Of a stretch of DNA of 40,528 nt, positions 1,962 through 21,261 are shown in pieces. Positions within the stretch are counted from its first letter, which is position 1; each line of letters begins with the position of its first letter. The position numbers were made by a program, and so were the translations under genes. The DNA is from a virus, in the IMG/VR virus record IMGVR_UViG_3300021138_000069, positions 1-40,528 of that record; one strand, 5' to 3'. Under the pieces are notes generated by a model that ran no database searches, was not told where the DNA came from, and saw nothing but the letters and a program-made list of their open reading frames with translations.

Positions 1962-2351
1962 TTAATCTGTGCCTCCACCATCACCACCAGCACCACCACT
2001 ATCGCCATTGTAGGGCGGGGGATTTGGCGGGGGAGGAGGTACCACCGGGGGCGGTAATGGTATGAACTGTGTGTATGCCGACTGACTATTGCCGCCGCCC
2101 CAGTAAAAAATCACTGCACCTGGGGTTCCAGAATCTGGCGTAATCACACCAGGCGAAGTAGTTGTCAACCCGCCGCCGGCACCACCCAAACCAAAAGATC
2201 CGTATATAACACCGCCGTCGACTAGCTGAAGTCTGTTGTCTCCCCCAGCACCACCAGTTTTGGGCTGACGGGTTCCTACAGGCTCATTAAGCCCGGTACT
2301 GCCATTTGCGCCATTTGGGCTTGCGCCTGTTCCACCTGTTCCACCTGCCAT
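1962..2351 (-). CDS. Small glycine/proline-rich adhesin-like protein, 129 aa
   Basis: Residues 1-85 are glycine-rich and contain the pattern GLGGAGGG...SGTPGAVIFYWG, the usual closing strand of phage glycine-rich receptor-binding domains. Residues 98-113 are almost pure proline (PLPPPVVPPPPP then NPPP), followed by a DSGGAGGDGGG tail. The opening half of such a domain is absent here but present in the 557-residue protein encoded at 3377-5050, on the far side of the dioxygenase gene, which suggests the two are separated halves of one adhesin. The start has a good AAAAGGATGCAATC-ATG ribosome site, so the protein is likely made. It could bind the virion tip or be a dioxygenase substrate. Both roles are inferences. 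Confidence 0.65.
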   Translation of the reverse strand: MAGGTGGTGASPNGANGSTGLNEPVGTRQPKTGGAGGDNRLQLVDGGVIYGSFGLGGAGGGLTTTSPGVITPDSGTPGAVIFYWGGGNSQSAYTQFIPLPPPVVPPPPPNPPPYNGDSGGAGGDGGGTD

Positions 2352-2363
2352 GATTGCATCCTT

Positions 2364-3374
2364 TTATACTTTATTTAACTCTTGCCAAAATTTATGTAAA
2401 TCTGGCAGTCGCGATAATGCCTTTTGATCTTGCAAATTTGCAGACTCAATTGCCGATAATGCCCGTAATTCTTCTGTAGTGACTGTGATTGTGCTTCCAT
2501 TTTGAGAAAGCAATTGCAAATTCCCAACTGCAATACTTCTTTCTAGTGTGGCCGGTCGTGACAAACAGGAAAACAGTTCAGCTAGATGTGTGGCTTCTTC
2601 GCCCACAACCGCTACAACACGATGCCGTTCACTAACAGGAACTGTTATGTCTTGATATACATTGGTGCCAAATATGCTGTGCATAGCCCCAGCGTTGCAT
2701 ATCACTTGCGATTGCTTGGCTGCTTTTAATAAATCGTACACTCTGAGTAGGTGCCCGCACAAGCTACAAGTGGCATGTGCCCGTTTGTCGGCGTTGCAAC
2801 TTTGTAAAAATGTTTGTATTCTGTCACGCTCGGGATCTATAGTTGCTAGAGGCGACATCTTGAACATGACAGTTATTCTCAGTTCGGGACAGATTCTTGT
2901 CAACCCACGGCTTACATGATATTGATCGCCAGGAAAAATTAAAACTGTGTTCCTTTTGGGAATTTCAGCGTGTATTATCTTGTTACCATTGTATACCATG
3001 GTTTCCCCGCCCCACTCACGACGCCAATTGTGATTCATGTACACCAAGAGAGTTAGTTCTCCTGGCTTGTTGCTGTCACGATGCGGATATCCCTCAACTC
3101 CAAAAGTATGGCTATTAGCATAGCATCTAATTAATCTATAATTAGGAAACTGTGTTGAGATGTATTGCCAGGCGAGAGAAATAGTGTCTGGTAGTTGTGT
3201 TGATGTATCTAATCCATTTTCAACAATAACATTGGCAAAATCTATATTCCAATGACTGTAGCCCAAATTGGGGTTACTGGGCCATCCGTATTCCCAACGA
3301 CGTTGTTTGATCTCTTGGTCTAGGCCGTTAATTATTTCATCAGAAAAAAAATCATCAATTGATTGAATATTCAT
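2364..3374 (-). CDS. 2-oxoglutarate/Fe(II) dioxygenase fused to an HD-like domain, 336 aa
   Basis: Residues 1-172 match the prolyl-hydroxylase-type 2OG-Fe(II) oxygenase fold. Iron ligands H98 and D100 lie in GYPHRD and H153 in GDQYHVSRG, and an arginine for 2-oxoglutarate (R160 or R166) follows. Such enzymes hydroxylate protein side chains or small molecules using O2 and 2-oxoglutarate. Residues from about 195 form a second helical domain, with GHLLRVYDLL and AGAMHSIFGTNVY motifs that resemble the HD-like DUF6817 family; a CSLC pair lies at 203-206. The gene sits with 2- and 12-base gaps between two Gly/Pro-rich adhesin-like genes, and a GGCGG ribosome site precedes the ATG. A tail-protein prolyl hydroxylase is a reasonable inference but the substrate is not shown. 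Oxygenase identity is strong; the C-terminal assignment is moderate. Confidence 0.85.
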   Translation of the reverse strand: MNIQSIDDFFSDEIINGLDQEIKQRRWEYGWPSNPNLGYSHWNIDFANVIVENGLDTSTQLPDTISLAWQYISTQFPNYRLIRCYANSHTFGVEGYPHRDSNKPGELTLLVYMNHNWRREWGGETMVYNGNKIIHAEIPKRNTVLIFPGDQYHVSRGLTRICPELRITVMFKMSPLATIDPERDRIQTFLQSCNADKRAHATCSLCGHLLRVYDLLKAAKQSQVICNAGAMHSIFGTNVYQDITVPVSERHRVVAVVGEEATHLAELFSCLSRPATLERSIAVGNLQLLSQNGSTITVTTEELRALSAIESANLQDQKALSRLPDLHKFWQELNKV

Positions 3375-3376
3375 TA

Positions 3377-5050
3377 TTATATGCCGCCATCACCACCGCC
3401 ACCAATTCCATCACCACCGCTATCGCTTGGGGTTGGAGGTACATAGTCATCATATGCTCCGTTACCAGGGTTTCCGCCATAAACAACAATAGTCTGCATG
3501 GTACCGTTTAGATTCCCAGTAACTGATGTAGCCCCACCTCCACCGCCGGTATAATTACTCAAATCAGTCCTGGTGCTCCAAAGCAATGTGTTATTAGTAT
3601 TAACAATGGTGACTGCAAAGCCGGCCGGACCGCCAATGTTCTCGGCCACAAATGATAATCGTCTATTGCCCTGCGCCATATACACCACTGTACTTGACGA
3701 TGATGTAAAGTCTGATGTGGTAGCCACTTGTGTACCATCAACCAAAATTGCTAATGTGTTATCAGCAGCATACGAGAATGTGTAATTTCCCGAATAAGGT
3801 GCATTAAACAGTCTATTACTTGTTACTGGTCGACTGATTGGTGTAATGCCGTCAGCGTTTGTCCATACTGCATAGGTATTCATAAAAGTTCCCCAGGAGT
3901 AAGATAACGAAACTGGAAAATACTGTGCGTTTTGATTGACTCCACCTACACCACCATCGCCAACAGTTACACTCAATACATCTCCTGGAGTTACAGTGTA
4001 ACTTTGAGTCAAATAAGCACCACTGCCACCACCACCACCGCTGCCACCTTGATTAGTACCGTTGACACCATTAGGTAATGCAGCTCCGCCGCCGCCGCCC
4101 GCACCTATAGCAAATAAATTGATTGAATGCACGTGTGCCGGCACCGTAAATGAGTATGTTCCTGGATTAGTAAATGCTTCAATTCCGTAAGTTTTTAGTA
4201 CCGTAAGATTCACTGGAATTGTCAACGTTGGGGCATTAGTAGCATTGCTGGTAAACGTCAAATTGTCTTGATATTTGCCCACTCCCAAACTGGTAGTTGC
4301 AGTCAAGGTAAATGTTTGTGTGTTGCCTGTGAACTTTGTGGCAAAATTACCACTGTTACTAAACACACCGCCTATCACCGCAGGTGTACTTATACCACTT
4401 GCGGTTACATAGCTATTTTGGCTTGCAATTGACGACACCAGTAAGTCACCACCGTTTCCACTGTTGTTGATTGAGATAGTGGTAGTAGTAGCTGTGTCGG
4501 ACACATAGTAGGTCAAATTAATGAGATTGGGGGTTACTGTTATACCATTGTAATCGGGACGAACATTTACGGTTACCGGAATACTGGTATTGGCATATCC
4601 CAAATAACCCGTGTAGTTTGTAAAAGCGATGTTGCCTGTAAATGTGCCCACTGTATTACCGTATACATTTATTGGAAAGTCTAAGCGGCCAGCTTGAGGT
4701 ATTGTTGTCGGCAAAGGTATAGGGAAATTAGAAGTGATATAGTTACCCACACTATCGTTTACGGTTGCGCTATTGATAACTAAATCATAATCACCGGTAT
4801 TGGATATAGTAAACGTTTGTGCCGGGACGTCTTGATAATGCTGATAGGGATTAAAGGTCAGTGTGGATACCGTTGGAGTATTGATACCTCTTGGAGTTGG
4901 ATAAATTCTTTCCCATACCCCATCACTTCGTTTATACCATGCAGTTTTAACCGGAATCCAAGTGCCATTTTGTTTGGTCCATAGTCCTTTTAGCGGTTTA
5001 TAACTACCATTATCTTTTACGTAAGTTATTCCGTACTTTAAATATGACAT
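3377..5050 (-). CDS. Tail fibre/adhesin with Ig-like, glycine-rich and PA14-like domains, 557 aa
   Basis: Residues 1-50 hold spaced tryptophans (KGLWTKQ, TAWYKRSDGVWERIYP), an anchoring head common in phage fibres. Residues 55-165 and 168-287 look like two immunoglobulin-like (ASH/BACON-type) beta domains, as in QTFTISNTGDYDLVINSATV. A glycine-rich domain begins at about 290 (GTYSFTVPAHVHSINLFAIG then poly-Gly) and is interrupted at about 372-498 by a beta-jellyroll segment resembling PA14-type sugar-binding modules (SGNYTFSYAADNTLAILVDG). Gly-rich sequence resumes at GGGGGATSV and ends with VPPTPSDSGGDGIGGGG. The usual closing strand of the glycine-rich domain is missing and instead appears in the 129-residue neighbour. 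It is probably the receptor-binding protein; domain calls inside it are from pattern only. Confidence 0.75.
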   Translation of the reverse strand: MSYLKYGITYVKDNGSYKPLKGLWTKQNGTWIPVKTAWYKRSDGVWERIYPTPRGINTPTVSTLTFNPYQHYQDVPAQTFTISNTGDYDLVINSATVNDSVGNYITSNFPIPLPTTIPQAGRLDFPINVYGNTVGTFTGNIAFTNYTGYLGYANTSIPVTVNVRPDYNGITVTPNLINLTYYVSDTATTTTISINNSGNGGDLLVSSIASQNSYVTASGISTPAVIGGVFSNSGNFATKFTGNTQTFTLTATTSLGVGKYQDNLTFTSNATNAPTLTIPVNLTVLKTYGIEAFTNPGTYSFTVPAHVHSINLFAIGAGGGGGAALPNGVNGTNQGGSGGGGGSGAYLTQSYTVTPGDVLSVTVGDGGVGGVNQNAQYFPVSLSYSWGTFMNTYAVWTNADGITPISRPVTSNRLFNAPYSGNYTFSYAADNTLAILVDGTQVATTSDFTSSSSTVVYMAQGNRRLSFVAENIGGPAGFAVTIVNTNNTLLWSTRTDLSNYTGGGGGATSVTGNLNGTMQTIVVYGGNPGNGAYDDYVPPTPSDSGGDGIGGGGDGGI

Positions 5051-5054
5051 TTAA

Positions 5055-6740
5055 TTAAATCTGAAACCAGAAGTCTCCGTTGTTTCCTAGAGAATTGTCC
5101 GGGAGATTGGTGCTTACCGTTTTGCTACTGCCCAGCCACAGTGCATCTGTAGCTGCAGGGATAGCGTTTTTTACAAATTCTGTTGATGCAATTTGTGTAG
5201 TGCTTGTGGCTGTACTTGCAGTGGGAGCCGTAGGCGTCCCGGTCAAGGTTGGACTAAAATTAAGCACAATATTGCCAACACCGGTCACTCCGCCAGGAGT
5301 TGCACCGTATATGGTAATGTTATTGCCAACTTGCAAATTTCCCACAGTTGCAATATCACCGGTTGTGGCATTTATTGAGACTTTACCACTGTTGAGATTT
5401 ATATTTTGAGATGCAGTCAAATTACCGTTAAAAGATATTGCATCTGCAGTCAATGTTCCAGTAACTGTGGGGCTGGCATTGAACACCAACTGGCCCGTGC
5501 CGGTTGCACCGGTGCTTGTTCTACCTTCTAGAGTAACATGACCGGTTACTGCCAAGTTGCCGCCTATACTTGCGTTATTTGCAACAATTAAATTACCAGC
5601 ACCTAGTGTTGACCCATCAAATGTCAACAACGAGCTATCAGTTTCTGTGCCACCAGCAGAACTGTAAACAACACGGCCGCTGGTCAGTGATGAATTTAAG
5701 ATATTGCTAGCCGATAATGTTCCAGACGATAATGTTCCAGTAAAAGTGGGGCTTGCACTAAACACAAGTTGTCCGGTACCAGTTGCACCAGTACTGGTAA
5801 CTCCGTATGCAGTAAGACTTTTGTTGTTTTGTATAGCCAAATTACCGTATACCACAGTGGATGCATCTGTGCCAACAACACGCAAGGCTGCCGTGGGGGT
5901 TCCACCAGTGTTAACCCAAATGCTTACGTTGGCATTTAACACATTGTTATAATATCTAGCAGTACCACTTGGTGCGCTGTCAATGGCAATGTTGCCATTG
6001 GCAATTAAAATGTTACTGGAGAAGGTGGGAACAATATCAGTTCTAGCATAGTTTGCAGCCACCACGTTGCCTAACATTTTGCTATTGGTAGCACTTCCAA
6101 TAAATTCTACTTCGTTGGCAATACCAGTGGCCACTGTGAATCCTGGAGCAATTGTGCTGAATCCTGTTACAGGATTGGCCGGACTAATGGTGAATGCAGC
6201 ATCGTAGCTGCTGATTGCCACCACACTGTTGTTGTGATAGAACTTGATCACAGTGTGAGTTTGCCCCACTGTGTCCAGTATATCTTCCACTATGGCTCCA
6301 CTCAGTCCGTCAGGTTGTTTGTAGGCTGGCCCAATCAAGGTCCAGCTGGCACCATTCCAGGTGTTGAGTTGATAGTTGACCGCATCCCACCATTGTGTGC
6401 CTACCACACTGCCAAAAGTATTGGATGTGGGAGCGGTATTTGCTACTATTACCGGACTTACCAGTTTCCAAGCGGTGCCAGTGTATACTTTTAAAAATCC
6501 TGTTCCTGTATCGTACCAAAGTTCGCCAGTCAAGGGCTTGGTAGGGGCAGTGTTGTTGGCAAAATTTTGTAGCAATCGAACAAAATTTTCATCTAAGAAC
6601 TGTCCGTATAAAGGATAATTTTTACCAAATAAATCAAGATCGCTTGCGTTTTGTCCAGGATTGATATCAGGACCGTCAGCAGTACCGTCCACTAGATTTA
6701 TCAACAATGTGCCATCAGTTTTGTTTAATAGGTATGCCAT
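5055..6740 (-). CDS. Tail fibre protein with repeated shaft motif, 561 aa
   Basis: The head domain (LFGKNYPLYGQFLDENFVRL, LTGELWYDTGTG, then QWWDAVNYQLNTWNG) is homologous to the start of the 395-residue fibre and probably docks on the baseplate or another fibre. The shaft carries three copies of a roughly 25-residue unit containing TSTGATGTGQLVFSASPTFTG and variants (TGATGTGQLVFNASPTVTG; GGVTGVGNIVLNFSPTLTG), spaced by NLxVxNN-type beta-helix turns. The C-terminus, with TQIASTEFVKNAI and NGDFWFQI, resembles the end of phage trimeric fibres. An AGGATAATCACA-ATG ribosome site fixes the start, and the gene follows the 222-residue structural gene by 5 bases. Receptor unknown. Confidence 0.8.
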   Translation of the reverse strand: MAYLLNKTDGTLLINLVDGTADGPDINPGQNASDLDLFGKNYPLYGQFLDENFVRLLQNFANNTAPTKPLTGELWYDTGTGFLKVYTGTAWKLVSPVIVANTAPTSNTFGSVVGTQWWDAVNYQLNTWNGASWTLIGPAYKQPDGLSGAIVEDILDTVGQTHTVIKFYHNNSVVAISSYDAAFTISPANPVTGFSTIAPGFTVATGIANEVEFIGSATNSKMLGNVVAANYARTDIVPTFSSNILIANGNIAIDSAPSGTARYYNNVLNANVSIWVNTGGTPTAALRVVGTDASTVVYGNLAIQNNKSLTAYGVTSTGATGTGQLVFSASPTFTGTLSSGTLSASNILNSSLTSGRVVYSSAGGTETDSSLLTFDGSTLGAGNLIVANNASIGGNLAVTGHVTLEGRTSTGATGTGQLVFNASPTVTGTLTADAISFNGNLTASQNINLNSGKVSINATTGDIATVGNLQVGNNITIYGATPGGVTGVGNIVLNFSPTLTGTPTAPTASTATSTTQIASTEFVKNAIPAATDALWLGSSKTVSTNLPDNSLGNNGDFWFQI

Positions 6741-6745
6741 TGTGA

Positions 6746-7414
6746 TTATCCTATGCTACTGAGATTTGTCAGTGTTTGTATGCGAACTGTGTAGTCAACT
6801 TGAATAAGTCTGTTTAAACTTTTTTGCACTGGATGAAACACTACGTGTGTCAGTAACGGTCCAGTGTCGGATTGAAAAACTCCATTTACAATGGTGTCTA
6901 CTGAGCCATCGGTGCTTCTGCCCACCAAACCTAATTCATCAAAAGTATAAGTGTCAGTCAGTGTTTGACTATTATCAAATGCACTCTGTCCTGCTGGCTC
7001 GCCGTAGTCTAATAAACAACTTACCAAAATATCTGTGTACACCGTGCCAGGCACATGTCGAACTTGAATATAGTTTTGTGCAGGATTGGGATTAGCAGCA
7101 CTGGTGTTGTCTACTATCTTGCTATATGTTGCGTTGTAAAGATTGCTGTTTTGTCCTGTAGTGTTTGGTGGTAGGTATGTAATAACACCAGTGGGATCAA
7201 CGCTGGTACCACCGTTGCCAAAACGCATTTCGTAGATGAAATTTTGTTGTTTGTTTGCCAAGTTGTAGGCCAATGCAATACTGATATTTTCATAGTGGAT
7301 TGCGTTGCGTTTGTTGATGTAGGTGATTTTTTCAACAGGGTCATATATGTGTATGTGTCCCTCTACATAAATTCCGCCTACATCGTCTGGTTTATTTTTT
7401 GTCATTTTGTTCAT
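6746..7414 (-). CDS. Conserved phage virion protein of unknown role, 222 aa
   Basis: I do not recognise a named T4 counterpart. Motifs NAIHYENISIALAYNLA near residue 38 and FGNGGTSVDPTGVITYLPP near residue 65 recur in structural proteins of T4-like aquatic phages. The C-terminal segment (HVVFHPVQKSLNRLIQVDYT) is beta-rich. There is no signal peptide, membrane segment or coiled coil. It lies between two fibre genes and has its own late-promoter octamer 16 bases before the ATG, so late virion expression is likely. A second in-frame methionine at residue 4 is an alternative start. It may be a fibre connector or baseplate accessory protein; that is a guess from position. Confidence 0.6.
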   Translation of the reverse strand: MNKMTKNKPDDVGGIYVEGHIHIYDPVEKITYINKRNAIHYENISIALAYNLANKQQNFIYEMRFGNGGTSVDPTGVITYLPPNTTGQNSNLYNATYSKIVDNTSAANPNPAQNYIQVRHVPGTVYTDILVSCLLDYGEPAGQSAFDNSQTLTDTYTFDELGLVGRSTDGSVDTIVNGVFQSDTGPLLTHVVFHPVQKSLNRLIQVDYTVRIQTLTNLSSIG

Positions 7415-8475: not shown

Positions 8476-11400
8476 TTAGATCAAAGGTTTAATTAGGGTT
8501 CTAAGGAACGCTGCTTCTACTGTAGGATTACTACTAAAGATTGCACCCTCTAAGCCTGACCCATCTGTAACTGCGCCACTGATGTTTCCAATTGTGGCCA
8601 GTGATTCTAGTACTCCACCCACGTTGGCTACAATTTGTGTGTTGTATTCATCAACAATAAACTTAGATATACCAGGCGGAGCGTTTAACCAAGTGTTTGT
8701 GTGTACCAAATTACCGCCTGGAATCAACTCGGGGGTGTTTACTTCTAACACTTGATTCCCTGCCACACTCACTGCAGGTGCCCCGGTACCATCCACTGCA
8801 CGACGTATTTGCCCCAACACATTGTTGTTATAGTCCACAGTCCAGAATGTGATCTTTTCACCATTGATATAAACCACACCTGGGGTCAAATTATTTAAGT
8901 TTGGGGGTGTTAATGCCTGGGCGTTTGCCACATATATATTGCTATCTGTGATGTTCAAATTGGCAGTCAGTGTGGTGATATGGTTGTAGTTGACGCCGTA
9001 ATATTTGGGCCAAACTTTGGTGTTTTGACTGCTGGCATTGGCCTGCATGTTGTATTCTATCAGATAACTCACTATGGATGTGCCACTTTGTAGCTTGGTG
9101 GTCACCATCATGTTCAAGTTGTCAAATGTTGCTCCAGGTACCAATTCTTCAGGCGCATGACTACTATAAGTGTCATAATAAGCTCCGCCATCTAAGGTTG
9201 TATCGCCTATATTGCTACCAAAAGTGGTATTTTTATAACTGTTTGTTATACTGCTGTCTAAGTATGTGGGATTGGTAAAATCATAATAACTTAAAGTAAT
9301 ATTAGATCCCAAGGTAATATCATGACTGATGCCAGTGGCTACCAATTGATCGCTAGAAATAATCACGATCTTTGTAACATATTCCCTGTTATAAGAGTTA
9401 TCCTTGATAGTTAATGGTTGCCCGACAGTGTAGCCCAAAGTGGTAAAGTCCACAACACTGACATTGCTACTGTACACCGACAATGTATTTGCAAAAGCAT
9501 ATAACACATTGCTATTGGTCAAGATTGAGGTATTGGCATTAAATTTAACTCCTGTAACCTCAACTCCGGGATAACCGATTCCTGTCATCAATTGACTCAA
9601 ATCTCGCCCGGGCATGCTGGCAGTAGGCTGATAGTATGCAGTAATTCTATCAGCAGCATTGGTAAATGTATTTGCTGATAACAATTGATATTTAGAATAA
9701 TCAAATACGTTGTTGATTGCAACAGGCACCACATTGGCATCTATGCTTTGAATTGCAATATTGCCCCAACGTCTTGTATAATTACTAGACAAATTGGCAA
9801 CAGTAATAGCACTTAGATTGCTGGATACAGCAATCACTGTGGCGTTGGCTGTTGTGTTAGCTTGGGTAACGTAATTGCCTATGTTGGCTGACACATTTCC
9901 ACTTAGACTTAAAATTGCACTACTGTAAACAGTTTGTAGCGCCTTATACGCCTGTCCGTTGTAGCTCACATATGAGTTTGCTGCAACAGTGATATTTGGT
10001 TGCCAAACAATAACATTACTGGTATACACGGTACGATCAAACTTCAATGTTGTGTCAATATTTCTCACAAAGTTATAGCTCTGATCTACAAATTGTGTGT
10101 ACGAGGTTACAGAACTCACATTGCTATTCAAGTTTGCATAATCTCGATAGATTGCATGATTGGTAGTGAATGTTCCTGCAACATCAATCAGTGTAATAGT
10201 ATTGCCATGGCTATTATTGTACACTGTACCATATGCGCCAGTATTGGCTTGCGTTATGATATTGCCAGTATAGACGTCATTATTGGTTGTAGTTGTGAGT
10301 ATTGTTGTCGGCAAGCTCTCAATCAAATAACAATTTCTCAATACCGGGTACCCTGCTGCTCCTGTGCCAGTACCGTTTATCAATATTGTAGGTGTGCTGG
10401 TGTATCCGGTGCCAGGTGCTATAACTTCAAATCGACTTATGTAGCCAGTGGTGTAATCCACTACTGCTGCCACATTTGCTCCTGTACCACCGCCACCCAC
10501 CACAGTCACTGTTGGTATTAGTGTGTATCCACCAATTTGATTTGCGCCTGTAGTCGCAGTTGGATATACTCCCAAATTAGCACCATTGGCGTAAAGATAT
10601 GCACCAGTAATGGTAATTGCAGTTACATTGGCTGATAAATTTGCCCCGTTGTTGTAAACAAATGCATTGCCTGTAGCAACATTGGCAAACTGTATTGCAC
10701 TCAAATTGATCAATGTGACAACATTGCCAGTGCTGGTGATGTATGCAGTTCCCGTAGCGCCTGTGCTCAATTGTGTGATTGTGTTTCCAGCTGCCACTGT
10801 TACTGCGGTATCCAAATACAAGTTGGCGTGTGTTGTAATAAATGTGCCGGATACATTTACCAAATCAATTATGTTGTCTATGGTGTTGATTTGCACATTG
10901 CCACTGGCACTCGAGTAAGGTTGTGTTATGGAGTCGCCGTAATTTACCACAACATTTGCAGTTGTAGTAAGTGATTCCACAAACACATTTGATCCGTTTC
11001 CAGGATGTGCTACCAATACTTCAGAGATACCGTATGTGTAATTGTTGTACCATTGACTGTACTGTGGTAGTGTGCTCAGGTACGGACTTAGGTCAGTTGC
11101 AGTACCCGTGGGACTTGTATAGGCTCCAGCAATGAATGTGGGAGGAATATCAAAATCTGTGGTATCTCCGTAATACTCGTCATTGCCTTGATAATCAATC
11201 AAGTATTGTCTAATACTGGTTCTATAGGGCTTGACCTCGTTGATGTATTGTTCGTAATAGGTTTGATTGTCCGGGATGTAATTTGCCGGCTGATTTAGTT
11301 TTCTCAACTGGTGTAGTACACTGATGAAACTGGTTTTGAATACCCAGTCAACTGCGGGTTGTTCGGTCAATATGTAATTGATCATGTAGAAGAATAAATC

Positions 11401-14400
11401 ATTGAAGTTTACTTCTAGTTCGTCAATAAAGATATTGTTTTGTATTGCTTTGAAAATAATACGTATTTCATTGGCAGCAACTGTGGTGGTGTACAACGAG
11501 CTATCAAATTGTATAGTGCCGTTTTGTATGCCCACCAAGCTACTGGTGCCATCTGCATTGTAGCGATAAATTACAAATTGGTTGTTGCCGTTGTTCAACA
11601 CCTTGATGGTGTTTCCTGCAACAGGACTGATTGTGGCCAAGTCAGCAACAGTGTTTACAACAAATGTTGGCAACACAGTGGGATTGTAACTGTTATCGTA
11701 CCAATTGACAAAACTCCAATAGAACGGAGTGTAGTAGCTTTGATATGCTATTGCTGACCATAATGCTCCAGTCCAAGCATAGGTGTACCACAATCCGCGT
11801 TCAGTTTCGTCTTTGAGCACTAGCACTGTGTATCCCACAGGTATTGAGGTGGTGTCAATATAGCTGAGTTCAGCGTGTGTGTCCACTGCTAGGTCATATA
11901 TTTTAGCATCAGGTAGCGGAGCAACATCATACAGTGCACTGATGTTGAATTCTTCAACTATGGGATGTTGTATCAGGATACCATTTACATACTCGACAAA
12001 ATTCTCTAGTGCTGTCAATCTGTTTACAAACAAGGTTTGATTGGGGTTGACTCCCAATCCAATACTGCTTTGCGGGGTCAAGTTTGCACTAGGTACTGCA
12101 AATCCATTCATGTCAACACCGCTTAGACTATCGATCATTTTGTTAATGATACGTGTAGGTATTGGGCTGCCGCTGTTGCCTTCCTGCACCAATTGGTATT
12201 CGCTGTGAATAATATTTGTGTTCTTTAAAGTGTCATAATCCATGTGCAACACTGTGGTATTGCCCGATGTGGTGTTTCCACCCAACATATTGCTTATGCC
12301 ATGTAAACTTACAGTGTCACTTCTTAGCACCGCAGCATAGGGGATGCCCTGCGCTTGTGGATTGGCAATGATGTCTTGTATGGTGCTTACTGTGTTTTTG
12401 TGAGTACTAGCTAGTTCTAAACTGTTTTTGTTATATACCCAGAAATAGTAAGTACTGGTTACCATTTTGGTAACTGAATTAATTGTGCTTTCTACTACAT
12501 ATGCGCTATTGTCAGGATACAAAGGAGTACCTAGGCCATTATAAGCACTAGGTGGCATATCACTAGCGACCCACTCGCAAACTTGTATTTGGCTGCCTGG
12601 GAATGTCGCGCCCCAATTATTGGCTCTATAAGTTAAATTGCCTTGTTCGTAATTCAAGTAACGAACTTGATCAATATTCCACCAAGTTTTTGTAACTTGC
12701 GCCGGGCCCCAATGAAAGTCTGTACTGTTGGCCAAATTGGGCACACTGTCAACACCGCCTACTACATTATACACCGCAGGATCATAAGCAGTGATGTAAT
12801 CTAAATCTTCTGCTGCTGCGCCAAGTACTTTGCCTTTGGCAGGATCAATGTAGTCCAAATTAGTAATAAGTGTACTGTTGGTGTTGTTGTACAAATAGAA
12901 TCTGCTGATGCTTTCTATATCCACTTGTGGTTGTTGTTGCTCGATAAGGTCCCATCCAACATTGCCTGTAAAGTTGTTGTACACATAATAAGTGCCACCG
13001 TTGGCAATAGTGACTGGCACCCCACTGTTGGGATCGGTAGTTATACTATTACTGTCGCCTGGTGCACCAACCAATAAAGTATTTGCATTCATTGCAATGC
13101 TGTAACCAAATTCATCATTGGTGTGTAGACTGTTGTTTTGTAATCGTTGTATCAATGTGTACTGGTCCGGTGTTCCATTAGCCAGTGCACCATTTACCAA
13201 ACCATAAACATAAACCATGCCTGATCCGTTGATGGCATCGTTAAACAAGGTGGAATTGTAATCAAATACTGTTTTGTTTTTATCAAATGTTGTTGTGTTG
13301 TATGTTGTTCCCTCGCTGGCTGCAATCATTAACGAAGCGCCATCTGGACTGCTGACAATTTGGCTACCAAACAAGTTTACATCGTCAGTTCCAGGGTGTT
13401 GGAATGACTGTACATTAGCAAATACTGATAATCCAAGATTTGACAATAGCGAGCTTGGGCCCAATGTTAGCTTTTGATACGGAGTTGCTACATTGCTGTT
13501 TATGGTCAATTGACCATATGGGTATGCAGTTGCAGTGACTCCAGGAATGTGTGCACTGTTGATATTTGCTGCCACATTGGCCACTGTGTTTCCGCTAATG
13601 GTTACAATAATGCCATTGATGCGTAGTGTGTCACCTGTGTTAATTACTGGACTGAAGTTTGTACTACTAATGGTGCCGTAACTGGCTCCTTGGTTTACAA
13701 ATCGGTACACTATACCACTATAGTATCCGGGTACACTGTATCCAGGACTTGCAACATATACATCAGCATCGTTGCCGGCTATCCAAGATGCCAATCCAAA
13801 TGCAGCTCCGCTGATTGTCGCGGGTGCTGTCAATTGTTCTAACAACTGTATGTTGTTGGTATCTACGTTGATCACACTGCCAATCACAGGTGCAGTGGTA
13901 AAGGTAACTGCACTACTGTTTGTTGTGAATCCTGTGGTTATTACATTACCATTTAGTGTAACCTTGACAGTGCTGGCCACAACAGGATATGTTGTAAAGT
14001 ATGCGGGTCCGCCATTGGCAATAAATGTTTCTACACTGCGATCGTACACGTATACTGCGCCAGCAGCTGTAATGTTGTTGACACTTTGATAAGGAGCAGA
14101 GATAGCAACTTGGCGTCCATTGCTGGTGGCTTTGACTTGATGTCCAAATTGTGCGTATGCGCTACTACCAATTGTGATGGTATTGGTATAACTGTAATAG
14201 TTTGAAGTATTGGCATGATACACATATACATTGCCTGCATTAGGAGCACTGACATATAGCCAACCACCGTCATTGCTGGCACTTACACTGGTTCCGTAAG
14301 CATCACCTGCATTACTGCTCCAAGGACTGGTTAGTGTTTGCGTCCACGGGAAACTGGCATTGCCATTAAATTGATGAATGTGTACACGTCCGTAATCGCT

Positions 14401-17400
14401 GATGCCGTTGCCGGGATCACCAATATAAATTAAGTTGCCGGCAGTGTCTAGGCTTGCACCAAAGTTGCTGACACTGTTGCCGGCATGTGCTCCAAGATTT
14501 GCCACTTGTGTAAATGTATTGCCATTTGTGACGTTGGAAACAAATGCTATAACATTGCCCAAGCCCAGTGTGGGTGTTCCGGCAAGAGCATATCTTCCCT
14601 GGGCGTCAATTGCAGTTACTGTGCCAAATCCTGCTCCACTGGTGTAATTTCCCGCTAACTTCATGTTGGCGTTGAATAAGTTTACATTGCCATGCCAGGG
14701 AGTAGACTTGTTGTAAACTACCCATCCATTGGTCAAATAATCACTGTCAATCCAGAGCTTGTCGTTATCAAGCCATCCTTGCAGTGGCTCAATTGAGTTT
14801 ATGTTTGTGTTTTGTTTGATTCGTGTACTTTGTAAACGAAACACTGGGCCGTGCCCGGTGATTGTCATTGCAGCTTTGATTTGATCGGCATTTTGTCCGT
14901 AAAACACCACGCTGATGTTGTAAGCGTCAACAATATTGTACACTTGATAAAATGCATCAACTCTGACATCAAATCCTTTTACAACAATGATATCGCCGTA
15001 CACAAACGTGTGTGGTCGATTAAATGTCACTGTGCCCACATTGTCTACGCCATAAGTCATTTTGACAACATTTATAGCAGTCTCTGTTACTCGATACACA
15101 TTCCAGTTTTGATTGGTGTCTTTGGCACACCATATGGTGTAACCCACGCCCACTGTGCCGATGTTGGCTGAAAGTTGTGCGTAGTTTCCAATATTGAATA
15201 TTGTTGTGTCTACATCATTTATGTTTACATAGCCAGCAGTGGCAATATCATTTTCGTAGATGCTGCTGGCATTGCGATTTAGATAAATGTTGGGCTGAAA
15301 TCCCACTGACGTCAAATATAAATTATTTGGTGTTACGCCAATGATGTTGTTGCTAATTGAACTGGCTCCGTTTGGCAACAGGGTAAATGTTACAGGATCA
15401 CCATTGAACACTCCCTCGGTCAGTACCAATTCAGCATAACGGTTGTTGTTTAATGCTCCATATTCGCCAACACGCATGCCCCATTCTTCATAAATGGCAA
15501 TGTTACTGGTGATACCGTTAAAGCCGGCAGCGGTAAATGCAGTAATGGCATTTAGCGAGCCTTTTTGTTTGATGAATCCTTGATAAAACTTGGCTTGAGT
15601 AGTTTCGTCAATACCAAAGTTGGTCATGTAATCACGTGGCTGGAATCCAATGGCACTGTCACTGTACAAGTGGAAGTCGCCCAAAGTTTCAGGATCGTCA
15701 ATGTCATTGAATCTCTTGAACTTTTCAGCGTTGTAACTAAAGTTGGGCAACAGGCCAGTTTGTATTTGTGTACTACTGATCTGTGTCCAACTGTTGGCAA
15801 AGAATGTGTTGGTTGCTACTAGATCTTGTGTGCTAGTGTAATAATTATTTTTATAAGTCACCAAACTACCAAGTGGATAATCTGTGCCCGGTTTCCAGCT
15901 AGACACTGTGGGACTGTTGTAGATGAATCCCGGGGGATTCATCGCTCCGGTCCAAGATCCTGTTTTCTTGCCCACCAGCTTGAGTCGGTACTGTCTATTG
16001 CCCAGTTCAGGAACATAGATGATGTCGTTAAACACATCAATGTTGTCAAATATCATCACATGCTCGTAGTCCACTAGATCCAGGTTAACCAAGCTGATGG
16101 TTTGTCCGCCATTGGCAGTAACCGAGAAAGTATTGCCATTCACTGTGTTGTTTCTAGTCACGGTCAGCTGGTTGTACTTGATGAAGTTATATCCAGTATC
16201 CAGTATACGACTTTGATTTGGAGTATTTTGTATTTGATCTACTACTCCTGTTGACGTAATCACTGTGAGTTTGTTTAGAATAGGACTTAGTACCAGTACC
16301 GCGCCTTCGCTCCAGCCCTGTTGACTCCAGGTCAAAAACTCTTGTACGCTCAACAAGAAGTCACGTTGAGTTCCAAGATCAGGATCAGTATCGGTGAACT
16401 GTATGCCAATGCCTTGTAGATAACGTTGATAGCTCACTAAGAAGTCAACCACTTGTTGTAGATTTGAGAACTCAAAGCCGTAAGGCACTGTTACTTTATA
16501 CTGCTGATAATTTTGATATATCACCGCGGTTTTGTTTAATACAGTAACAGGATACGCATTGTTATTGGCCAAACTGGGTATAATGGTAAAGTAGGGCTGA
16601 TCGAAATCAAACCCGCTTACTGAGTATCCGTTTGCAGTTACTTCAATGGTGACTGCACTGTATGTGATGTTGCTGACTGGCGTTGACTTGTACAAGTCAA
16701 TTGAATAACTCTCGTTGGGAATTATCACTCCGGGATTTGTGGTCTTTGGCGAACTTTGCTCGGCAATGACTTCAATAAATGTTTTGTCAGTGTAAGCAGC
16801 CATTTTATAGGCCAACTGCACATTGACATTATCCAGATAATTATACAAATATGTTCCAGGATCAATGCCCTGATTACGCAAATACTCCGCCACCCAATTG
16901 GTGTAACCAGCTGCTCGATATACCGCAGTGCCATTGGCAGTGCCATTGATGTATATGCTTTTAGGAGTCACACGCTGTAGTGAATCACTTAATACATATT
17001 GATTCAAATTGGGGTTTTTGTAATATCTGCCAATATCAAATAGTGTGCCAAAGTAAAATGCCGGTGCACTAAGAGCAATTGCCTGCTGCATGGCAAACGC
17101 AAAATCACTGCTTCGTCTCCAAGCAGTTTCCACTGGGCCTTGATCACCAATAGCAAAGTTGCCGTTGGCTCGATTACTGTTGAAACTCTTTACTGCAAAT
17201 TCACTTGGCGGACGTAAGGCTCCAGTATCATCTACTGGTATCAGACCCGGCCAACCATTTGCTGGGTCGGGCAACAGGCCATTTACCACACCTGTAGTGG
17301 GGTTGACAAAATATCTTATAAATCTCGAGTCGGTGTAGGCTGCGCTATCGCCGCCGTTCCATATGTAGCCGGTTTGTAAATCTTGCCATAGCACATAGTT

Positions 17401-20400
17401 ACCCCCAGTGTAAGGCGCAGCACCATAACGTGTTTCCCACCAAGCAGGCATTTCGCTAAAGCCCAGCATTTCCCAAGGACATGTGTCCGGACGATCTGTA
17501 TCGTAGAAATATTTGTAAATAGCACGCCAATACCCAAATAACGATTCTCCATTGATGCTGTCCACAAACTGATTGTAATTCCAAGTAAACGGCTCGCTGG
17601 CAACAAAATATTTGTTGGTGATATAATCAACTCGATTGCCGCCCACCCATTGCAAGAAACTGTCTGTTAGCAGTTGTGTAAACTCTGTTTTGTTGTAGTC
17701 AGTGGTTCTGAATTTTCCAGGCAAGAAATTATAAATATCAAAAACATTTTTTTGATAATCAACTTTGATGTTGTTGTAAATGCGTTTTTCAAATTCCAAC
17801 AACAGTTGATCGCGATAATCGCCCCAGGCTGGAGTAATACTGCCATCGTGTCCCTGTATCACATTAATAGGAGTTTGATAAGTATCATCTAGATAAATTC
17901 TTGGAGTAAATTTTGGATAAAGTCCTAACTTTGTAGGTGTTTCAGGAATATAATTACCATCAGTATTGTTGTATTCGTTAATGGTAATAGCATCTCCAAT
18001 ATTCAACGGATATGTAATAGTCACACCAGAACGTGTGGTATCAAACGTGTAATCCACACCCTTGACCAATTGTACACCATTGACATAGATCAACACTGCG
18101 TTATTGCTCAGTGTGGTATCGCCGAAAATATTACTGATTTCATAGTCGGTATTTTGTGTGTTTAACACAGTGTAACTTAGGGTATTTAAATAATTGTTAC
18201 CGTAAGGCACCATGTCACTATAATACCAAGCAAAGTTTTTATTTTTAACTGCATTGATATTTTGCAACAGTGTGTCTAATAATTTTGGTATGTTGGTAAA
18301 GTCCAAGCCCGCAGTTCTTGTACTTAATTCAATGATTTTGTTTTTTAATTTGGTGTATTCGTATCGTGCTAGATTCAATCCTTTCAAGAAGTTGGCGTTT
18401 ACATCTTCTAAGAATATCTCACTATACAACACTGGACTTGCATGTTGTAATATGCTTCCGCCTTGTGTCTTGACCGGAACGTCGCGCAGGTTACTAGCTC
18501 CAGGAACTGTACCTACAACTTGATTACTATTTGTTGCCATTGCAGACAAATGATTTCTTAATTGGCCTAAAGTAAGATTGTTGAAATTTGCATTTGCGCT
18601 GTTGTAATCCAAATTCTCGGGAACCCCATAATAGCCCAATTGGCTCACTTGAGATTTGTTATAAATCAATATGTCAATTTGATCGCCAGTGGTTAAACTG
18701 GTGTCGGTGACATAAACATAAGTATTGATTCCAATTTTTTGTACACTGTATCCTGTTGTCAATTGACTGTTACGGTATACTCTAAAATAGGGCACTGTGG
18801 TTCCCGGACTGGCAGTGATATCGATTTGAAAATAAGGATTATTTCCATCATATATCCCACTGATGATTTGGAACTGTTTAGATTTCTCGTTGTTAGTGGT
18901 CCAGCTATTTCTTAAATTATAACTGGTCAAGTTGACATTTTGTTGTAGTGTACCGGCGGTGTTGATGTTTTTGTCTGTAACTGCAACTTCTCCAGTAGTG
19001 GTATACCCAAACTTGTCATTGTCAAAATTATTTGTGAACTGTATGTCGCCAATTTGATTGAAGTTTCTGTAACTTAAAGGAAATCCCAACACACTGTCAA
19101 CTGCACCTGTACCAACTGTGTAAGAAAATATCTTTGTTCCCGCAAATGTTGATCCAAAGTAAACATTGGTATCGCCTAGACTGTAACCATTACTATCAAT
19201 AACATCAAATAGTGGTACTTGATTTACTGAGTTTTTGGCCTGCGCAGGATACCATTTACTGCCATCAAACCAGAATTGATAGTATGTGGCGGTATTAGCC
19301 GGATAAGGATACTTGGCTCCCGACAATACCACAACTGTGTTATTTGGACTCACCAAGTAATCTTCTGCTGGTACTAGATTAATAACCGAAGTTGGTCCCG
19401 GATAAAATGCCGCAACATACACAATGTTTACTACAAAAATTTGATTGGATATAGTGGGATCAAAATCATTTGCAAAAATAACTCGCATGCCCTGTGTCAG
19501 TGTAATTCCATCAATGGCGTAGCCTTCGGGTTGCAGTTCCACAGTATTACGAGCATCTGTAATTGAAAAATTCAATATGTCCACTGGAGCTTTTGCCACT
19601 CGACCAAAATTGTATAACTGTACATTGGGTTCAAATTCAATAATAGGCCTTGTGGCTCTTAGATTTTGATCCAATACCGGGGTAGTATTATTGTATGCGG
19701 AAGTTGCGTTGATAATATCAATGTGGAACCATCTGTTGCTACGTGTCCAAGGATTCAAATCTGCGCCGGCGCGATTTATTGTGAGATAATCTAAATTTAC
19801 CAGGCCACTGGTGGCGTAAGCCTCGGGAGTTTCAAAAGAAGTTACATCTAGCAGTTTTATTGCAGTACCTACACCTTCTACATAGTAGGTGTTACCAGCA
19901 TAACTACTGGGGTTGGCACTACTGTCAAAAGTGACGGTTAATCCATTAGAAAACACCACACCATTGGGGCTCTTGTATGTTTTTGCTCCAACTATGTCTT
20001 TGTCTATGTTTATTATTGTATCGCTCAACACCAATAAATCTATTTGTCCCACATATCCAGCGCCCACACCATCTTGATAGTATAGATTTGTCAATGGTGC
20101 TGTAATCGCGGGTACTGGGTTATAAACATTGTATTGTAAATAATCAGGATTTAAATAATAAGCAAATTCTGCACGAGTGGCACCGCCTTTGACAAACACT
20201 TTTTGCAAGGCCGAAACTGTGAATGCCTGTGCCAGTGGGTTCAGTGTAACAACAGGATCTGCATCATTACTTAATACGATTTCCCAAGCATTTAGTCTAT
20301 TGTCTACCGGCACTGTAACACCGTTCACGGTCCAGAAACTGGCGTCAAGATCGCCATTGACAAAAATTAAACTTTTTAAATTCAGTTGATAACTGCTGCT

Positions 20401-21261
20401 GACACCATCTATTCCAGACTCCTGTAGTGCTACAATACTACTCAGTGTTTTACCTTGAATTTGATTGTAGTGTAGTGTTGTGCTTAGATCTGCAGTGCCG
20501 GCCAACTTCAACTGTGTGTAAAAGTCTTGTGCATTGGACTGAGGCACCGTAAAAGTAACAGTGCCCACATCGGTACCGTTGTTGGTTACACCCAGTACGT
20601 TTCTACTGCTGATGTTGGTTTGATTGGGTTGTACGCCACTGACTCCAGGATCGGTTTGAATCCAGAACGGAAACCCAGGTTGATTGACTACAAATTGATA
20701 TGTACCACCGTAGCCCAATCTCAGTACAGGGTTTTCTACTCCGTCAGTGGTGCTGAAGTTGTAAGTGCCTGTCGCAGGATTACGTGTAACTATAAATGTT
20801 TGTTGGGCTGGAATTTCTGATCCATATACCAGCACTGCTCCTGGACCGTTTTCTAACCAATAATATTGTGTGAAGTTTACAAACTTGTCAAAGTCAAACA
20901 AACCATCATAACTGTAGTACTCGCTTTTGAATAGTCGGTCATGGTTGTTGTTGAATCCGCCACTGTAACCCACTTGATTCACCAAGTCAATATAACTGCT
21001 GAAGAAATCTACATTGTTAGTTTTGGGATTTTTAACTACTATGCTGGGCTCAAGTTGATAATTTTGTCTTTGGGCAGTGGGCTCGGGCACATAATTGTCA
21101 GTACTTTTGAATGTGGGCGCAAATTTACGACCTACATATCCATTGATGTTTCTCAAATCCGGTTGCGTTACCAATTGGTCCAAAGTTGCGTTTAAAAACT
21201 TTTGATTGGCCGGAGTTCTGAATGCTTCGGGTAAAAAATTACTGGTTACTATTTGTGCCAT
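8476..21261 (-). CDS. Giant baseplate/tail structural protein, 4261 aa, with seven-bladed FG-GAP-like propeller
   Basis: A single open frame of 12.8 kb. The first residues (FLNATLDQLV, then a VGRKFAPTF and SSYIDLVNQVGYSGG pattern) match the start of very large virion proteins in T4-like aquatic phages. Its place directly after gp25 and gp6 is that of T4 gp7 (1032 aa), so a baseplate-wedge role is inferred. Near residue 1787 and again near 3757 are short W...Y..G..V.Y...Y elements like chitin-binding CBM5/12 modules. Residues about 2190-2790 hold seven FG-GAP/integrin-like blades (FG-S-VS...G..L.VSAP....G.VYVY). Residues about 3437-3827 contain four copies of a GNxITQxxTGAxGTxY unit. The C-terminus is beta-rich. 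The ATG follows the gp6 stop by one base. The peripheral domains could bind host surface glycans; that is inference. Confidence 0.85.
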   Translation of the reverse strand: MAQIVTSNFLPEAFRTPANQKFLNATLDQLVTQPDLRNINGYVGRKFAPTFKSTDNYVPEPTAQRQNYQLEPSIVVKNPKTNNVDFFSSYIDLVNQVGYSGGFNNNHDRLFKSEYYSYDGLFDFDKFVNFTQYYWLENGPGAVLVYGSEIPAQQTFIVTRNPATGTYNFSTTDGVENPVLRLGYGGTYQFVVNQPGFPFWIQTDPGVSGVQPNQTNISSRNVLGVTNNGTDVGTVTFTVPQSNAQDFYTQLKLAGTADLSTTLHYNQIQGKTLSSIVALQESGIDGVSSSYQLNLKSLIFVNGDLDASFWTVNGVTVPVDNRLNAWEIVLSNDADPVVTLNPLAQAFTVSALQKVFVKGGATRAEFAYYLNPDYLQYNVYNPVPAITAPLTNLYYQDGVGAGYVGQIDLLVLSDTIINIDKDIVGAKTYKSPNGVVFSNGLTVTFDSSANPSSYAGNTYYVEGVGTAIKLLDVTSFETPEAYATSGLVNLDYLTINRAGADLNPWTRSNRWFHIDIINATSAYNNTTPVLDQNLRATRPIIEFEPNVQLYNFGRVAKAPVDILNFSITDARNTVELQPEGYAIDGITLTQGMRVIFANDFDPTISNQIFVVNIVYVAAFYPGPTSVINLVPAEDYLVSPNNTVVVLSGAKYPYPANTATYYQFWFDGSKWYPAQAKNSVNQVPLFDVIDSNGYSLGDTNVYFGSTFAGTKIFSYTVGTGAVDSVLGFPLSYRNFNQIGDIQFTNNFDNDKFGYTTTGEVAVTDKNINTAGTLQQNVNLTSYNLRNSWTTNNEKSKQFQIISGIYDGNNPYFQIDITASPGTTVPYFRVYRNSQLTTGYSVQKIGINTYVYVTDTSLTTGDQIDILIYNKSQVSQLGYYGVPENLDYNSANANFNNLTLGQLRNHLSAMATNSNQVVGTVPGASNLRDVPVKTQGGSILQHASPVLYSEIFLEDVNANFLKGLNLARYEYTKLKNKIIELSTRTAGLDFTNIPKLLDTLLQNINAVKNKNFAWYYSDMVPYGNNYLNTLSYTVLNTQNTDYEISNIFGDTTLSNNAVLIYVNGVQLVKGVDYTFDTTRSGVTITYPLNIGDAITINEYNNTDGNYIPETPTKLGLYPKFTPRIYLDDTYQTPINVIQGHDGSITPAWGDYRDQLLLEFEKRIYNNIKVDYQKNVFDIYNFLPGKFRTTDYNKTEFTQLLTDSFLQWVGGNRVDYITNKYFVASEPFTWNYNQFVDSINGESLFGYWRAIYKYFYDTDRPDTCPWEMLGFSEMPAWWETRYGAAPYTGGNYVLWQDLQTGYIWNGGDSAAYTDSRFIRYFVNPTTGVVNGLLPDPANGWPGLIPVDDTGALRPPSEFAVKSFNSNRANGNFAIGDQGPVETAWRRSSDFAFAMQQAIALSAPAFYFGTLFDIGRYYKNPNLNQYVLSDSLQRVTPKSIYINGTANGTAVYRAAGYTNWVAEYLRNQGIDPGTYLYNYLDNVNVQLAYKMAAYTDKTFIEVIAEQSSPKTTNPGVIIPNESYSIDLYKSTPVSNITYSAVTIEVTANGYSVSGFDFDQPYFTIIPSLANNNAYPVTVLNKTAVIYQNYQQYKVTVPYGFEFSNLQQVVDFLVSYQRYLQGIGIQFTDTDPDLGTQRDFLLSVQEFLTWSQQGWSEGAVLVLSPILNKLTVITSTGVVDQIQNTPNQSRILDTGYNFIKYNQLTVTRNNTVNGNTFSVTANGGQTISLVNLDLVDYEHVMIFDNIDVFNDIIYVPELGNRQYRLKLVGKKTGSWTGAMNPPGFIYNSPTVSSWKPGTDYPLGSLVTYKNNYYTSTQDLVATNTFFANSWTQISSTQIQTGLLPNFSYNAEKFKRFNDIDDPETLGDFHLYSDSAIGFQPRDYMTNFGIDETTQAKFYQGFIKQKGSLNAITAFTAAGFNGITSNIAIYEEWGMRVGEYGALNNNRYAELVLTEGVFNGDPVTFTLLPNGASSISNNIIGVTPNNLYLTSVGFQPNIYLNRNASSIYENDIATAGYVNINDVDTTIFNIGNYAQLSANIGTVGVGYTIWCAKDTNQNWNVYRVTETAINVVKMTYGVDNVGTVTFNRPHTFVYGDIIVVKGFDVRVDAFYQVYNIVDAYNISVVFYGQNADQIKAAMTITGHGPVFRLQSTRIKQNTNINSIEPLQGWLDNDKLWIDSDYLTNGWVVYNKSTPWHGNVNLFNANMKLAGNYTSGAGFGTVTAIDAQGRYALAGTPTLGLGNVIAFVSNVTNGNTFTQVANLGAHAGNSVSNFGASLDTAGNLIYIGDPGNGISDYGRVHIHQFNGNASFPWTQTLTSPWSSNAGDAYGTSVSASNDGGWLYVSAPNAGNVYVYHANTSNYYSYTNTITIGSSAYAQFGHQVKATSNGRQVAISAPYQSVNNITAAGAVYVYDRSVETFIANGGPAYFTTYPVVASTVKVTLNGNVITTGFTTNSSAVTFTTAPVIGSVINVDTNNIQLLEQLTAPATISGAAFGLASWIAGNDADVYVASPGYSVPGYYSGIVYRFVNQGASYGTISSTNFSPVINTGDTLRINGIIVTISGNTVANVAANINSAHIPGVTATAYPYGQLTINSNVATPYQKLTLGPSSLLSNLGLSVFANVQSFQHPGTDDVNLFGSQIVSSPDGASLMIAASEGTTYNTTTFDKNKTVFDYNSTLFNDAINGSGMVYVYGLVNGALANGTPDQYTLIQRLQNNSLHTNDEFGYSIAMNANTLLVGAPGDSNSITTDPNSGVPVTIANGGTYYVYNNFTGNVGWDLIEQQQPQVDIESISRFYLYNNTNSTLITNLDYIDPAKGKVLGAAAEDLDYITAYDPAVYNVVGGVDSVPNLANSTDFHWGPAQVTKTWWNIDQVRYLNYEQGNLTYRANNWGATFPGSQIQVCEWVASDMPPSAYNGLGTPLYPDNSAYVVESTINSVTKMVTSTYYFWVYNKNSLELASTHKNTVSTIQDIIANPQAQGIPYAAVLRSDTVSLHGISNMLGGNTTSGNTTVLHMDYDTLKNTNIIHSEYQLVQEGNSGSPIPTRIINKMIDSLSGVDMNGFAVPSANLTPQSSIGLGVNPNQTLFVNRLTALENFVEYVNGILIQHPIVEEFNISALYDVAPLPDAKIYDLAVDTHAELSYIDTTSIPVGYTVLVLKDETERGLWYTYAWTGALWSAIAYQSYYTPFYWSFVNWYDNSYNPTVLPTFVVNTVADLATISPVAGNTIKVLNNGNNQFVIYRYNADGTSSLVGIQNGTIQFDSSLYTTTVAANEIRIIFKAIQNNIFIDELEVNFNDLFFYMINYILTEQPAVDWVFKTSFISVLHQLRKLNQPANYIPDNQTYYEQYINEVKPYRTSIRQYLIDYQGNDEYYGDTTDFDIPPTFIAGAYTSPTGTATDLSPYLSTLPQYSQWYNNYTYGISEVLVAHPGNGSNVFVESLTTTANVVVNYGDSITQPYSSASGNVQINTIDNIIDLVNVSGTFITTHANLYLDTAVTVAAGNTITQLSTGATGTAYITSTGNVVTLINLSAIQFANVATGNAFVYNNGANLSANVTAITITGAYLYANGANLGVYPTATTGANQIGGYTLIPTVTVVGGGGTGANVAAVVDYTTGYISRFEVIAPGTGYTSTPTILINGTGTGAAGYPVLRNCYLIESLPTTILTTTTNNDVYTGNIITQANTGAYGTVYNNSHGNTITLIDVAGTFTTNHAIYRDYANLNSNVSSVTSYTQFVDQSYNFVRNIDTTLKFDRTVYTSNVIVWQPNITVAANSYVSYNGQAYKALQTVYSSAILSLSGNVSANIGNYVTQANTTANATVIAVSSNLSAITVANLSSNYTRRWGNIAIQSIDANVVPVAINNVFDYSKYQLLSANTFTNAADRITAYYQPTASMPGRDLSQLMTGIGYPGVEVTGVKFNANTSILTNSNVLYAFANTLSVYSSNVSVVDFTTLGYTVGQPLTIKDNSYNREYVTKIVIISSDQLVATGISHDITLGSNITLSYYDFTNPTYLDSSITNSYKNTTFGSNIGDTTLDGGAYYDTYSSHAPEELVPGATFDNLNMMVTTKLQSGTSIVSYLIEYNMQANASSQNTKVWPKYYGVNYNHITTLTANLNITDSNIYVANAQALTPPNLNNLTPGVVYINGEKITFWTVDYNNNVLGQIRRAVDGTGAPAVSVAGNQVLEVNTPELIPGGNLVHTNTWLNAPPGISKFIVDEYNTQIVANVGGVLESLATIGNISGAVTDGSGLEGAIFSSNPTVEAAFLRTLIKPLI

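Follow-up and report, generated by a model that had tools for sequence, protein, structure and literature searches.

The window analysed here, a 40,528-bp IMG/VR virus record that represents a giant-phage-like genome fragment, carries a gene (2364-3374, minus strand) for a 336-aa protein in which a PHD2-like 2OG-Fe(II) oxygenase is fused to a DUF6817 domain. This gene lies inside a split tail-fibre locus, and its relatives in phages and bacteria recur beside Asp/Gly-rich stretches of mutually unrelated proteins. The placement of the enzyme pair by such stretches suggests, from sequence comparison, an undescribed chemical modification rather than the proline hydroxylation that the original prediction assigned to the gene. 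We estimate a probability of roughly 0.55 that the two enzymes constitute a portable cassette for oxidising exposed proteins at their Asp/Gly-rich segments, a reading in which the adjacency is observed and the chemistry and substrate are deduced from it.

The open reading frame proved to be real, as judged from Pfam matches, nine homologues and an AlphaFold model of the complete protein (mean pLDDT 87). Residues 1-175 (2850-3374, minus strand) match both PF13640 (2OG-FeII_Oxy_3; E 3.7e-8, 34.6 bits against a curated cut-off of 27) and phrog_274. The active-site residues previously described as an intact HxD...H...R set are indeed invariant among the nine homologues, which share 34-57% identity: H98 and D100 of the H98-R-D100 motif (3075-3083) and the distal H153 (2916-2918) are the iron ligands, and R166 (2877-2879), judging from the family, is the expected ligand of the 2-oxoglutarate carboxylate. 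The model contains a double-stranded beta-helix fold, and its best PDB matches in Foldseek are the HIF prolyl hydroxylase PHD2 (EGLN1) and other prolyl hydroxylases (E about 1e-6). By residues and fold, the protein is a member of the 2OG-Fe(II) oxygenase superfamily. A sequence search of the PDB returned no useful match, and no close DNA match to cultured phages was found. The PHROG label of phrog_274, DNA endonuclease V, was rejected because no such Pfam family is present and both sequence and fold are those of a 2OG oxygenase. Cyanophage 2OG oxygenases bear the same label in RefSeq records, apparently through propagation of a wrong annotation.

About half of the protein, overlooked in the original prediction, is occupied by the second domain. 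The match to DUF6817 (PF20680) covers residues 189-273 (2556-2810, minus strand; E 6.8e-18, 65 bits against a curated cut-off of 25.2), and the structural domain runs on to about residue 336. The window protein is a clear member of this family, but one that is fused to a 2OG domain. Modelled alone, DUF6817 is predicted to adopt an HD-like fold (pLDDT 93), for which the best Foldseek matches are the alarmone hydrolases RelH and MESH1, although these are weak (prob 0.99, E about 0.05, TM about 0.5); the HD-domain protein TmpB is also a weak match, at rank 44. In 17 diverse DUF6817 proteins, H200, H208, H232, S233, E310 and N313 are invariant, giving three His residues, a Ser that replaces the HD-motif Asp in all 17, and a C-terminal E-x-A-N motif. 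The HD diiron oxygenase motif H...HD...H...H...D (PhnZ/TmpB/MIOX) is not found in these 17 proteins. Having no HD aspartate, DUF6817 is therefore not filed with the HD-domain oxygenases. The domain is rare: it scored above its cut-off in 8 of the 300 genomes sampled from one family and in 5 of 297 from a second, and a literature search found no mention of it.

The left part of the window is a minus-strand operon of tail proteins, and the features described in this paragraph all lie on that strand. The oxygenase gene sits directly behind a fibre gene and separates the halves of a single Gly_rich_2 domain. The N-terminal part belongs to a 557-aa tail-fibre-like protein with a PA14-like insertion (3377-5050; PF21722, PHROG tail families and synteny), and the detached C-terminal part forms a 129-aa Gly-rich protein (1962-2351; joined-profile match and synteny in relatives). 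The 557-aa fibre alone matches positions 1-202 of the 226-position Pfam profile (30.4 bits), whereas the two proteins joined, with the PA14-like insert omitted, match positions 1-225 (39.8 bits), and an unsplit protein at locus L076 likewise spans 1-225. Independent contigs, among them L001, L008, L010, L012, L016 and L018, share this arrangement, which thus is not due to chance. L011 has the same split with no oxygenase in the part seen. The locus is flanked upstream by a 561-aa tail-fibre protein (5055-6740; PHROG and synteny) and downstream by a 395-aa tail protein with a Peptidase_G2-like region (696-1883; Pfam, PHROG and synteny). A 222-aa conserved structural-region protein (6746-7414; phrog_11259 and homologues) served as the anchor for finding related loci, and has relatives of 40-48% identity in jumbo phages, for example Agrobacterium phage Atu_ph07 and Sinorhizobium phage Phosso.

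Both neighbours of the oxygenase had been described as ending in Pro-rich, Gly-rich tails. This description fits the 129-aa protein, which has a 16-residue Pro-rich linker at residues 98-113 (PLPPPVVPPPPPNPPP; 2013-2060, minus strand), but not the 557-aa protein, whose terminal sequence YDDYVPPTPSDSGGDGIGGGGDGGI is Asp/Gly-rich and holds three prolines. The C-terminal tail of the 557-aa fibre (SDSGGDGIGGGGDGGI; 3380-3427, minus strand), the proposed substrate region, is of a type that tracks with the oxygenase in relatives, and a second Asp/Gly-rich tail ends the 129-aa protein (GDSGGAGGDGGGTD; 1965-2006, minus strand). The window's own Asp/Gly tail is short and falls below the strict tract threshold used below.

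When this locus was compared across related jumbo phages, the last 40 residues of the fibre were Asp/Gly-rich in 9 of 10 oxygenase-positive loci versus 3 of 36 negative loci (Fisher P=1.9e-6), where the negative locus L014 is a truncated one whose fibre tail is the same as that of L015. Asp/Gly tails occur at L011 and L033 with no oxygenase gene in the part seen. In the tenth positive locus, L018, the DG tract lies immediately ahead of a C-terminal Hint domain, such that the tract would become the C-terminus of the mature protein upon self-cleavage. Hint/intein-like domains end Gly-rich tail proteins at both L018 (11936-13165; weak Pfam match) and L011 (13943-14908; recognized by eye), and at L011 the domain follows a Pro-rich linker.

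An enrichment for particular residues was sought by screening single residues and residue pairs in 60 sequence clusters, comparing 117 genes near the enzyme with 662 far genes from the same loci. Windows rich in Gly were the top match (31 near versus 6 far genes, P=8e-22); Asp+Gly windows (27 versus 5, P=4e-19) and Gly+Pro windows (23 versus 5, P=8e-16) were also strongly represented, whereas Pro alone was barely enriched (5 versus 4, P=0.005). The residues in and around the tracts are 39.4% G, 17.7% D and 4.7% proline, and 7 of 29 tracts contain no proline.

A looser tract threshold (D+G>=15 of 30, D>=3) matched 87 of 336 control blocks and was therefore replaced by a stricter definition. With thresholds partly set after the first examples, and with phage loci that are not fully independent, a strict tract lies within two genes of the enzyme in 13 of 25 close-family clusters compared with 7 of 336 control blocks (P=1.4e-12). 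This comparison is conservative because one tract-bearing control locus, L127, is itself an oxygenase locus. Among distant clusters, strict tracts are found in 11 of 135 near genes and 2 of 424 far genes. The tract-bearing proteins are mutually unrelated, and the tract can be upstream of, downstream of or between the enzyme genes. Mapping the tract label onto the tree requires at least 10 changes, and thus a single inherited synteny was rejected as the cause of the association.

Several divergent phage lineages carry the enzyme with no adjacent Asp/Gly tract. A tract elsewhere in the genome was considered as a rescue for these lineages and rejected, because a GDGGGDG DNA pattern is absent from 17 of 18 tract-less divergent records, including contigs of 354, 324, 240 and 202 kb, and is found in 1 of the 18. 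In one phage class (L122-L141), proteins with a low-complexity region opening QGCGCGCG or QGCGDGGDGG (for example, L132 9006-10688) are encoded directly downstream of a 2OG and DUF6817 gene pair.

The bacterial relatives are adjacent, separate 2OG and DUF6817 genes. In Burkholderia territorii, the pair accompanies C39 exporter and HlyD genes and a GG-leader peptide ending SSDGGDGGDGGDGGGDGGGD, and in Dyella, Stenotrophomonas and Luteibacter it lies beside GG-leader peptides containing IFGGDG; Pfam confirmed a C39 exporter and a radical SAM gene in the Stenotrophomonas cluster. Luteibacter has a second copy, whose two genes are separated by a DG-rich reading frame. In Herbaspirillum and Polaromonas, the pair occurs with an acetyltransferase-like gene and with the gene for a large RTX/Ig/cadherin protein that bears a DG tract. 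The pair also adjoins a PilV pilus-tip operon in Burkholderiaceae loci L325 and L329 and on Paraburkholderia fungorum plasmid pBIL; L325 encodes a secreted protein whose C-terminus is a DG run, and no strong DG tract is nearby in P. fungorum. The 2OG genes next to DUF6817 at L325, L329 and L334 were located by a six-frame search. Xanthomonadales GG-leader precursors (IFGGDG...WVKVGP) were observed at L163 (3704-3967), L164 (3707-3904) and L175 (3850-4044), in clusters with a C39-type exporter, 2OG, DUF6817 and a further 206-220-aa gene, which possibly represent an undescribed RiPP-type cluster. The bacterial pairs lie in clusters of the kind known from RiPP tailoring (C39 exporter, radical SAM and GG-leader precursor); no leader peptide, exporter or radical SAM gene was seen beside the enzyme in the window.

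These associations are consistent with a model in which the N-terminal PHD2-like hydroxylase and the HD-like, probably metal-binding DUF6817 domain would form a two-step protein-modifying enzyme. Its targets would be the low-complexity, Asp/Gly-rich ends of the neighbouring tail-fibre proteins, modified either ahead of tail assembly or in its course, and we consider it slightly favoured that such a tract is the substrate. The 2OG domain might hydroxylate Asp, or the alpha carbon of Gly, within DG repeats; Asp hydroxylation specifically is rather unlikely. DUF6817 may then process the hydroxylated residue, in the manner that PhnZ and TmpB act after PhnY and TmpA, in which a 2OG hydroxylase is followed by an HD-domain diiron oxygenase (PMC8177086). 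The likeness is one of logic, a 2OG enzyme with an HD-fold partner (PMC8177086), but PhnZ and TmpB have HD where DUF6817 has HS, and a phosphonate context is absent. Transfer of the fused gene or adjacent pair between phages and bacteria would also carry along the Asp/Gly-rich segments of fibres, secreted peptides, pilus-tip adhesins and RTX adhesins, and the modification could benefit receptor binding, the stability of DG-rich tails or metal binding. A broader version, that the pair is a general, horizontally shared protein-modification system that places an oxidative mark on Asp-Gly repeats at the cell-to-cell interface (on phage tails, pilus tips, RTX adhesins and exported peptides) and in which DUF6817 performs a new HD-like chemistry, is plausible at somewhat less than even odds.

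The proposal that the enzyme hydroxylates proline in the Pro-rich linker, stiffening the fibre tip as in collagen-like proteins, draws on the prolyl-hydroxylase-like fold, on the presence of the linker in both the window and L018, on the enrichment of Gly+Pro windows near the gene, and on work on 4-hydroxyproline in chlorovirus that is cited in a Baltic virus paper (PMC9301287). However, its expectation that the gene would co-occur with Pro-rich neighbours fails in both directions, as L011 has the linker without the gene and L001 and L008 have the gene without the linker. Together with the marginal enrichment of proline and the proline-free tracts noted above, this led us to reject proline as the common denominator as a general rule. 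Such an activity also leaves DUF6817 unexplained, and we judge it quite unlikely. The remaining part of the original prediction, that the enzyme is tied to tail proteins, is borne out by homologues that recur beside tail-fibre genes, and by relatives in T4-like cyanophages that directly follow a short tail fibre and its chaperone. Its corollary that homologues should neighbour tail rather than metabolic genes applies to most of the family and not to some divergent lineages: the L112 oxygenase is beside SbcCD-like genes, and those of L113, L115 and L116 are beside a RegA-like gene (identified by eye). The proximity of divergent relatives to replication genes would fit a substrate within the infected cell, such as a small molecule, nucleotide or nucleic acid, with the tail location being incidental. 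The HD-like domain could then resemble its nearest folds, the alarmone hydrolases, or the protein could serve in DNA repair or 2OG metabolism and sensing, as proposed for cyanophage 2OG proteins by Sullivan et al. (PMC3037559). We regard a substrate of this type as very unlikely, because most of the family consistently has tail, adhesin or peptide-export neighbours, protein hydroxylases are what the 2OG domain resembles, and every DUF6817 compared has Ser in place of the HD-motif Asp.

Alternatively, the enzyme may be a passenger, in that cargo genes could accumulate beside Asp/Gly repeats without acting on them because such repeats are recombination-prone. In a pattern sample, DG tracts were common in viral contigs lacking the enzyme (112 of 120), and most loci with such tracts do not have it. 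Elsewhere among related phages, the split site holds a 134-aa MGISLEEYL protein, a GNAT-like protein, a subtilase or a 162-aa protein with no Pfam match that is possibly a peptidase. However, other cargo goes with CCVISTA or IICTKLYELG C-terminal domains rather than with DG tails, the tract position varies relative to the enzyme genes in phages, chromosomes and plasmids, and the bacterial clusters show a logic of peptide maturation and export. A passenger effect is thus unlikely, and modification of the Asp/Gly-rich segments is the reading that we prefer.

Genes for 2OG oxygenases abound in phages, where most are classed as metabolic or wrongly annotated as endonuclease V. Many PHD-like phage proteins are noted in a 2026 annotation paper, in passages that name no substrate (PMC12774648). 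The nearest cultured relatives of the window enzyme, the T4-like cyanophage oxygenases (phrog_274), have a homologous 2OG domain (22-37% identity) and lie with further 2OG genes, and cyanophage S-RIM50 has a DUF6817 gene that adjoins 2OG genes in the vicinity of a tail fibre. Unlike the window enzyme, the cyanophage proteins carry no DUF6817 fusion, and no strong Asp/Gly tract was found alongside them, although some of these phages have Gly-rich tail proteins. PHD2/EGLN1 and the prolyl 4-hydroxylases are the best structural matches, but their identity to the window domain is about 12-19% and the neighbours of the window enzyme point to Asp/Gly, not proline. The present analysis provides a specific candidate substrate class, the Asp/Gly-rich tails of exposed proteins, and a functional hypothesis for DUF6817, and it connects phage tails, bacteriocin-like peptides and pilus-tip adhesins by way of one enzyme pair. 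If this is correct, some phage receptor-binding proteins differ chemically from what their genes encode.

Other tail-associated genes were observed in related phages. Proteins of 134-140 aa that start with MGISLEEYL or a similar sequence occupy the split site at L019 (13378-13800), L028 (13949-14362), L031 (15476-15880) and L045 (15455-15868), behind fibres whose C-terminal domains are of the CCVISTA or IICTKLYELG type; the one tested has no Pfam match, and these proteins look like a further tail cassette. Related jumbo phages also have a different 2OG-FeII_Oxy_3 gene, unfused and placed among other tail genes (L045 18137-18751 and L059 18416-19012), and a Subtilase-family peptidase gene is located within the tail-fibre module of another relative (L068 9428-10966). 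In the window itself, positions 8476-21261 form a single ORF of 4,261 aa, apparently a giant tail structural protein.
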